This document shows positions 1 to 7,455 of a stretch of DNA of 33,912 nucleotides, in pieces. How positions within the stretch are numbered: the stretch's first letter is position 1; every line of letters starts with the position of its first letter. The notes beneath the pieces were generated by a model, which was given only the letters and a program-made list of their open reading frames with translations, was not told where the DNA came from and searched no databases. This DNA is from Bacillota bacterium (GTDB taxonomy: Bacteria > Bacillota > Sulfobacillia > JAJYWN01 > JAJZPE01): assembly GCA_021811325.1 (NCBI GenBank), contig JAJZPE010000014.1:1-33912 (forward strand). The letters run 5' to 3'. The position numbers were made by a program, and so were the translations under genes.

Positions 1-22
1 GGCTACACCTGGAGGTCATCGG

Positions 23-1411
23 ATGGCCGGGACCGGCGGTTGCGCCCTCTTCATAGATCACGAGAACGTGACCGTTTCCCTGCGCGATCAGCGGCGGGAG
101 GTAGCCCCTGCTCGGCTGGCCTCTGTCTTCAAGGTTTGGGCGGAGACCCACGGCCGCCTGATCATGGCCGAGTCCTTCGCCAATTGGACCCGCTTCACCG
201 GCCAGGCTGACTACGACCGCTTCGGCATCACCCCGGTCTTCGCCGGCGAGGCCAAGAACGCCGCCGACATCCGGATGGCCACCCGGGCCTATGAGGCCAA
301 CGAAAACCCGGCCGTCAAGACGATCATCCTCGTCACCGGCGACCGGGACCTCAAGGCCGTGGCTCAAAAGATCAGGCAGACCGGGCGGGTCGTGGTCGTC
401 TGGGCCGTCTCATCGACCGCGGCCGGCCAGCTGAAAGGAGTGGCCGATGAGTTCGAGACGGTGGAGGACCTGTTGCTGGACGCTGACAGAAAGGGTGGCC
501 GGCCCCCGGGCGGTGGGCCGCGTCCGGCCGCGGAAGAGGGCGTCGCCGCCACCGGCGGCCACGGGACGGCCAAGGCCCCCGGCCAGGACAAGCGCCGTTT
601 CAGCGTGAGTGAGCTGAAGGCCTATGAGCAGTGCCCCCGGCGCTGGTACCTGCAGTACATCCGGAACGTCCGGACCCCGCCGACCCACGAGGGCTTCGTC
701 GGCCAGCACATTCATCACGCTCTCAGAGACCTCATGCTCAAGCCCCCTGAGGAGCGGACCCTCGAGTTCCTCTGCGAACGGTTGCGCACCCACTGGCGCG
801 ACGACCGCCGCGGCCGCGAGTGCTTCCAGAAGGACCGTGAGTTCGAACGGAAGTGCGGCGAGCGGGCCATCGGGCTGCTCGAGAACTTCTACCTCGGGGC
901 GGACCTCAAGGCCCAACCAAAGCAGGTCGAGCTCTTTCTGGACTGGACCGTGGCTCCCCGTGGGTCTTCCGGGACGCCCGGGGGCTTGCCGGCGGGGGTC
1001 ACCCTGACCGGCAAGATCGACCGGATCGACGGCGCGCCCGATGGCCGTCTGATCATCATCGACTACAAGACAGGGCGCCTGCAGCCCAGCGACGAGTACC
1101 TGCGGCAGGACATTCAGGTGGCCGTCTACTGGACGATGGTCGAAGAGACGCAGAAGACGCCGGTGGGCGCTTTCAAGTTCCTCGGCTTGGCGGAGTATCG
1201 CGAGTTGGAGATGCGCCCGTCGCCGGACGACCTCGGCGCCGCCCTCGGTCGGGTGACCCAGATCATCGGGCGCATCCACACTGACCCCGACCCGCAACCG
1301 AAGGTCGGCCCGCTTTGCCCGTGGTGCGGACATCTCGATGGCTGCCCGGACAAAGACAAAGCGTCTTCGTTCAAGAAGGCGCCGGAAGGCAGCGATGATT
1401 TGCCGTTCTGA
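23..1411 (+). CDS. NYN (LabA/DUF88-like PIN-fold) domain fused to RecB/AddB/Cas4-type PD-(D/E)XK nuclease with Fe-S cysteines
   Basis: N-term FIDHENVTV, ADIRMA and VTGDRDLKAVAQKIRQTG match NYN acidic motifs; Gly/Pro linker; then FSVSELKAYEQCPRRWYLQY, GQHIHHAL, GKIDRID, IIIDYKTG, DIQVAVYW (QxxxY) and CPWCGHLDGC. RBS GGAGG before ATG. Confidence 0.88.
   Translation: MAGTGGCALFIDHENVTVSLRDQRREVAPARLASVFKVWAETHGRLIMAESFANWTRFTGQADYDRFGITPVFAGEAKNAADIRMATRAYEANENPAVKTIILVTGDRDLKAVAQKIRQTGRVVVVWAVSSTAAGQLKGVADEFETVEDLLLDADRKGGRPPGGGPRPAAEEGVAATGGHGTAKAPGQDKRRFSVSELKAYEQCPRRWYLQYIRNVRTPPTHEGFVGQHIHHALRDLMLKPPEERTLEFLCERLRTHWRDDRRGRECFQKDREFERKCGERAIGLLENFYLGADLKAQPKQVELFLDWTVAPRGSSGTPGGLPAGVTLTGKIDRIDGAPDGRLIIIDYKTGRLQPSDEYLRQDIQVAVYWTMVEETQKTPVGAFKFLGLAEYRELEMRPSPDDLGAALGRVTQIIGRIHTDPDPQPKVGPLCPWCGHLDGCPDKDKASSFKKAPEGSDDLPF

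Positions 1412-5406: not shown

Positions 5407-7455
<2,049 letters not shown>

Follow-up and report, generated by a model that had tools for sequence, protein, structure and literature searches.

The Cas4-like proteins of pfam12705, which occur alone or linked to helicases and lie mostly outside CRISPR loci, have a PD-(D/E)XK core and Fe-S cysteines like those of the protein described here; the fusions and links described for them involve UvrD or YprA helicases, in contrast to the NYN fusion that we report, and the Cas4 phylogenomics study mentions neither NYN nor the single-stranded DNA-binding protein, SSB (PMC5704561). The nuclease domains of AdnA and AddB (6ppu, 4ceh), which share the C-x2-C-x5-C motif and the upstream cysteine, are the best matches in both sequence and fold, whereas the present protein has no helicase motor, carries an NYN domain instead and ends in an SSB-like tail. 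The Cas4-family protein ACE1 (9iab, 9iac) has a stand-alone Cas4-like fold, as does the nuclease domain of the fusion; it differs in being linked to Argonaute (according to the PDB title), in its chain of 266-277 residues without NYN and in an identity of 12-14%. On the RNA side, the NYN ribonucleases MARF1 NYN, VPA0982 and the B. fragilis CRISPR NYN have the PIN-like fold and three catalytic aspartates in common with the NYN domain of the fusion. We know of no NYN ribonuclease that is fused to a DNA nuclease, and the open-access literature that we searched contains no description either of NYN fusions to Cas4/RecB nucleases or of SSB tips on other proteins.

A precedent for an SSB-like tail on an enzyme is the bacteriophage T7 gp4 helicase-primase, a non-SSB enzyme whose acidic tail, as in its SSB, has Phe as the last residue; both protein and fold are unrelated to the fusion. 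The SSB C-terminal tip (SSB-Ct) consists of a terminal acid-hydrophobic-Pro-Phe sequence after a disordered tail, an arrangement common to SSB and the fusion, the latter being a nuclease without an OB fold. Docking through this tip is established in E. coli, where the SSB tail contacts about 20 proteins, most of them via the tip (PMC10164576).

The fusion gene and its reading frame

The window, that is, the whole stretch of 33,912 nucleotides analyzed here, is one entire contig (C78) of a draft genome (G000; 2.79 Mb, 97.75% complete). Only 22 bases from its edge lies a gene for a 462-aa NYN / PD-(D/E)XK fusion protein (23..1411 on the plus strand, including the stop codon), which starts with ATG preceded, at 6 bases, by the Shine-Dalgarno sequence GGAGGT (11..16, plus strand). 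A second contig of the same genome, C205, carries a reverse copy of the first ~130 bases of the window with a single mismatch, Shine-Dalgarno sequence included, which confirms the start of the gene; C205 probably continues upstream of it into a divergent gene for a PucR-type regulator and into transporter genes. On the 3' side of the fusion gene there is a 99-aa ORF (1453-1752) with no Pfam match, which may be a gene fragment.

The initial annotation, made from the sequence alone, proposed that this single ORF holds two nuclease folds, and our analysis bears this out: NYN and PDDEXK_1 both score above their Pfam cut-offs, making the protein a member of both families, and the same architecture occurs in relatives (G058 and G532). 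In the AlphaFold model the two domains are confidently built (mean pLDDT 87.0) and joined by a disordered linker at residues ~158-190 (494..592, plus strand; pLDDT <50 at 160-180) that differs in length and sequence between fusions. The same arrangement appears in the model of another, diverged fusion (pLDDT 86.8).

The NYN domain

The N-terminal part, a predicted ribonuclease domain of the PIN-like type (residues ~5-157; 35..493, plus strand), matches PF01936 at residues 8-146 (E=1.1e-15; 58.9 bits against a curated cut-off of 24.2, which P0002, P0006 and P0004 exceed as well), and in Foldseek its fold matches VPA0982 (2qip) and MARF1 NYN (5yaa). All of the motifs quoted for it initially are present, namely IDHEN (D12), ADIR (D82) and GDRD (D107). 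These three candidate catalytic aspartates align with D14, D92 and D115 of VPA0982, the equivalents of which have been named as active-site residues (PMC11346440). All four fused NYN domains retain them; the G532 fusion has GDQH in place of GDxD, so that just the second D of this motif is lost. The domain is best read as a ribonuclease.

It is quite improbable that DNA flaps are the substrate of the NYN domain, or that it merely binds nucleic acid, so that the fusion would be a pure DNA-processing enzyme and its RNA side spurious. The relatives of the nuclease partner are DNA enzymes, as such an enzyme would lead one to expect, and the NYN domain is missing from most members of the nuclease clade described below. 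NYN has the PIN-like fold, whose superfamily has roles both in RNA decay and in the replication and repair of DNA (PMC11346440); however, the closest NYN folds of known activity are ribonucleases, MARF1 for example, the B. fragilis NYN cleaves single-stranded RNA with manganese (PMC11346440), and the fusions have retained their catalytic aspartates.

Similar NYN domains also head proteins of 529-588 aa in other genomes of the class (L006, L039, L040, L041 and L042), with a different C-terminal half; in the one that was checked this half has no Pfam match.

The PD-(D/E)XK domain

The C-terminal part is a Cas4/AddB-like PD-(D/E)XK domain (593..1357, plus strand), with a PDDEXK_1 (PF12705) match at residues 192-442 (E=2.8e-31; 109.8 bits against a curated cut-off of 22). 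Here again the motifs of the initial annotation are found: CPRR (C204), HIHH (H231), GKIDRID (D333), IDYK (D347, K349) and QVAVY (Q365-Y369). Its AddB-type Fe-S cysteine signature, C432-x2-C435-x5-C441 plus the upstream C204, is likewise backed by Pfam, the PDB profile search and the fold. Foldseek matches this part to AdnA, AddB, ACE1, Dna2 and Cas4, and the family profile searched against the PDB matches the AdnA nuclease domains, VPA0982, Cas4, ACE1 and MARF1 NYN. The protein belongs to a nuclease clade of 14 members from Bacillota, Planctomycetota, Chloroflexota and Elusimicrobiota, which are 29-54% identical to it. The active-site residues H231, D333, D347 and K349 and the cysteines C204, C432, C435 and C441 are kept in 14/14, and all 14 thus have the AddB/Cas4-type pattern of an upstream Cys and C-x2-C-x5-C after the core. 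The domain is best read as a solo Cas4-like DNA nuclease, with a predicted activity and a putative Fe-S cluster.

Two more specific identities were rejected. For CRISPR Cas4, TIGR00372 gives 44.5 bits against an equivalog cut-off of 65, and a search for Cas1 in the 97.75% complete genome found no match; for AddB, TIGR02773 gives 14 bits against 903.7, the match being limited to the nuclease part. On contig C193 the genome has two more PDDEXK_1 ORFs, close together and AddAB-sized, that look like an AddAB pair.

Recurrence and neighborhood of the fusion

The fusion occurs in 4/154 genomes of the class: it is intact in the window genome, in G058 (494 aa) and in G532 (501 aa), and frameshifted in G003. 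No additional fusion was found in 398 genomes drawn from the phylum, nor any NYN fusion in 246 Planctomycetota genomes. A scan of genome contigs with the window protein as single query gave no relatives, and tblastn against plasmids and phages gave no close homologue, just distant matches to the nuclease domain.

The initial annotation had raised the possibility that the fusion is absent from all relatives and hence an assembly artefact. The gene does lie at a contig edge, and in G003 the NYN and nuclease parts are in different frames, with the frameshift near residue 139. The intact fusions of G058 and G532, however, come from independent assemblies, share only 30-34% identity with the window protein and conserve both the active sites and the C-terminal tip; we therefore give practically no credence to an artefact of assembly or annotation. 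Each of the other ways in which the initial annotation might have failed also turned out otherwise, both domains being detectable and the catalytic residues conserved. In G003 itself (L023, 4868-5560 and 4177-5118, minus strand) the sequence reads AAAGGTGG in place of the window's AAAGGAGTGG; this two-frame state may reflect separate products of a split gene, a sequencing error or decay.

A single origin of the fusion is neither rejected nor shown by the nuclease tree (p-AU 0.336) or the NYN tree (p-AU 0.185). In two related Bacillota genomes, one of them titled Limnochordales, the gene for an unfused nuclease with an SSB tip is arranged head to head with a separate gene for a LabA-type NYN protein (NYN gene / nuclease: L055, 4914-5615 on the minus and 5977-6831 on the plus strand; L066, 5130-5771 on the minus and 5866-6828 on the plus strand); the two genomes are closely related and have some of their flanking sequence in common, so they count as one case. 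A co-occurrence of NYN and AddB-like genes in Terriglobia was dropped because a dehydrogenase gene on the opposite strand lies between the two.

The genes around the fusion gene in the window, G058 and G532 are for the most part metabolic and vary from one genome to the next, in keeping with a stand-alone housekeeping enzyme. In G003, by contrast, nuclease and putative defense genes adjoin it. In this genome (L023, 1920-4108; L052, 9600-13337), genes for a PDC-S11-like protein, an REase-ARP nuclease, a DUF7255 protein and a large PDDEXK_1 protein follow the fusion gene, a possible defense island.

The protein might accordingly be a defense nuclease, whose Cas4-like domain would degrade invading DNA while the NYN domain cut RNA during infection. 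Apart from the G003 neighbors, this would agree with weak matches to the PADLOC models for Cas4, DruK and NYN, and with the presence of Cas4-like pfam12705 proteins in defense loci when joined to helicases (PMC5704561). The metabolic neighbors in the other three genomes, the lack of a Cas1 match and the plasmid and phage search mentioned above speak against it, and we regard this role as unlikely. The rarity of the fusion within the class is compatible with both defense and genome maintenance.

A conserved SSB-like tip

The last residues of the window protein, GSDDLPF (residues 456-462; 1388..1408, plus strand), follow the C-terminal tip pattern of SSB, and the genome's own SSB, on contig C33, ends in EDDIPF. 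This DDLPF tail was not noted in the initial annotation and is new here. The protein does not belong to the SSB family itself (PF00436), since it has neither an SSB match nor an OB fold and the SSB gene is elsewhere in the genome.

The tip pattern or a close variant ends all 14 members of the nuclease clade (DLPF, ELPF, SLPF, DVPF, EVPF and, once, ELDF), while what precedes it has no fixed length or sequence and cannot be aligned. It ends none of the 83 other PD-(D/E)XK relatives in the loci examined and 1/545 further long ORFs of these loci, an approximate background from mechanically chosen ORFs. In every member genome the main SSB has a C-terminal [ILVA]-P-F, preceded in most cases by acidic residues. 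When the tail is excluded, the tip carriers group together among 70 nuclease domains, with 3 changes in the tree as opposed to 12.9 after shuffling, and in a tree of 24 rows the tip is a single change with modest support (69/82). The tip is the general feature of the clade and the fused NYN domain a rare addition; most members have no NYN, so the core function does not lie in RNA cleavage. Other Planctomycetota relatives end in LDVPF, EDVPF, EAPPF and EEVDW. The variants EEVDW, from one Planctomycetota relative, and ELDF, from the Chloroflexota member (L155, 853-2346, and L060, 5896-6756, respectively; distant relatives), still have an aromatic last residue.

Similar tips are found on viral contigs (L184-L191, L210-L237), in 28 Cas4-like nucleases, many of them near-identical: 28/28 end in Phe and 26/28 in Pro-Phe. 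Their tips, largely of a D[YFD]PF type and including DDYPF, EEDFPF, SDDPF and YSPF, are acidic, resemble SSB tails and stand ~8-12 residues past the last cysteine. Since this phage group scores far below the bacterial clade on the profile of the clade, the tip may have arisen twice. We would tentatively generalize that bacterial and phage Cas4-like Fe-S nucleases have repeatedly gained an SSB tip, posing as SSB for recruitment to replication and repair, and that one branch has added NYN to clear RNA along with DNA there.

Acidic tails compete with single-stranded DNA in some SSB-type proteins, and a tip acting in cis would bend back onto the nuclease or the NYN domain, imitate a single strand there and gate the active site while recruiting nothing. 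The low model confidence of the tip suggests that it is disordered, and by the model the tail would be long enough to reach back; the short distance between tip and last cysteine in the phage group points the same way. Acidity and an aromatic residue would suffice for this purpose, yet in most members the likeness to the SSB tip extends to the final Pro-Phe, and AlphaFold does not place the tip confidently. A purely cis-acting tip seems rather improbable.

Proposed function

Since the protein terminates in a copy of the SSB docking tail, it is probably recruited to replication or repair sites on DNA, places at which RNA and DNA meet. The initial annotation had suggested defense, RNA-DNA hybrid processing or repair, and it is this tip that makes us lean to replication and repair. 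In the reading that we prefer, with a probability of roughly 45%, the fusion is a genome-maintenance nuclease whose SSB-like peptide docks on the partner proteins of SSB and which combines DNA trimming with RNA removal. The disordered tail with its acidic-L-P-F tip would fit the SSB-holding pockets of RecO, RecQ, RecG, PriA, RecJ and similar proteins, and this docking would place the enzyme at SSB-coated DNA. There the PD-(D/E)XK domain, braced by its Fe-S cluster, would trim single-stranded DNA ends or flaps, and the NYN domain would cut RNA, be it primers, the RNA of R-loops or RNA beside exposed single-stranded DNA. Several observations count against genome maintenance: SSB-like tips are uncommon on enzymes other than SSB, the tip varies (ELDF, EEVDW), NYN is missing from most clade members, the G003 domains are in different frames, G532 has GDQH, and defense-like genes lie near the G003 fusion.

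If the genome-maintenance reading holds, the joining of a ribonuclease to a Cas4-like nuclease would offer a compact means of dealing with RNA-DNA conflicts at forks; the tip, for its part, would be expected to compete with SSB for the pockets they share. The unexpected tail makes the role of the fusion testable and, being conserved, gives a concrete clue, itself open to experiment, to the place and the partners of solo Cas4-like nucleases.
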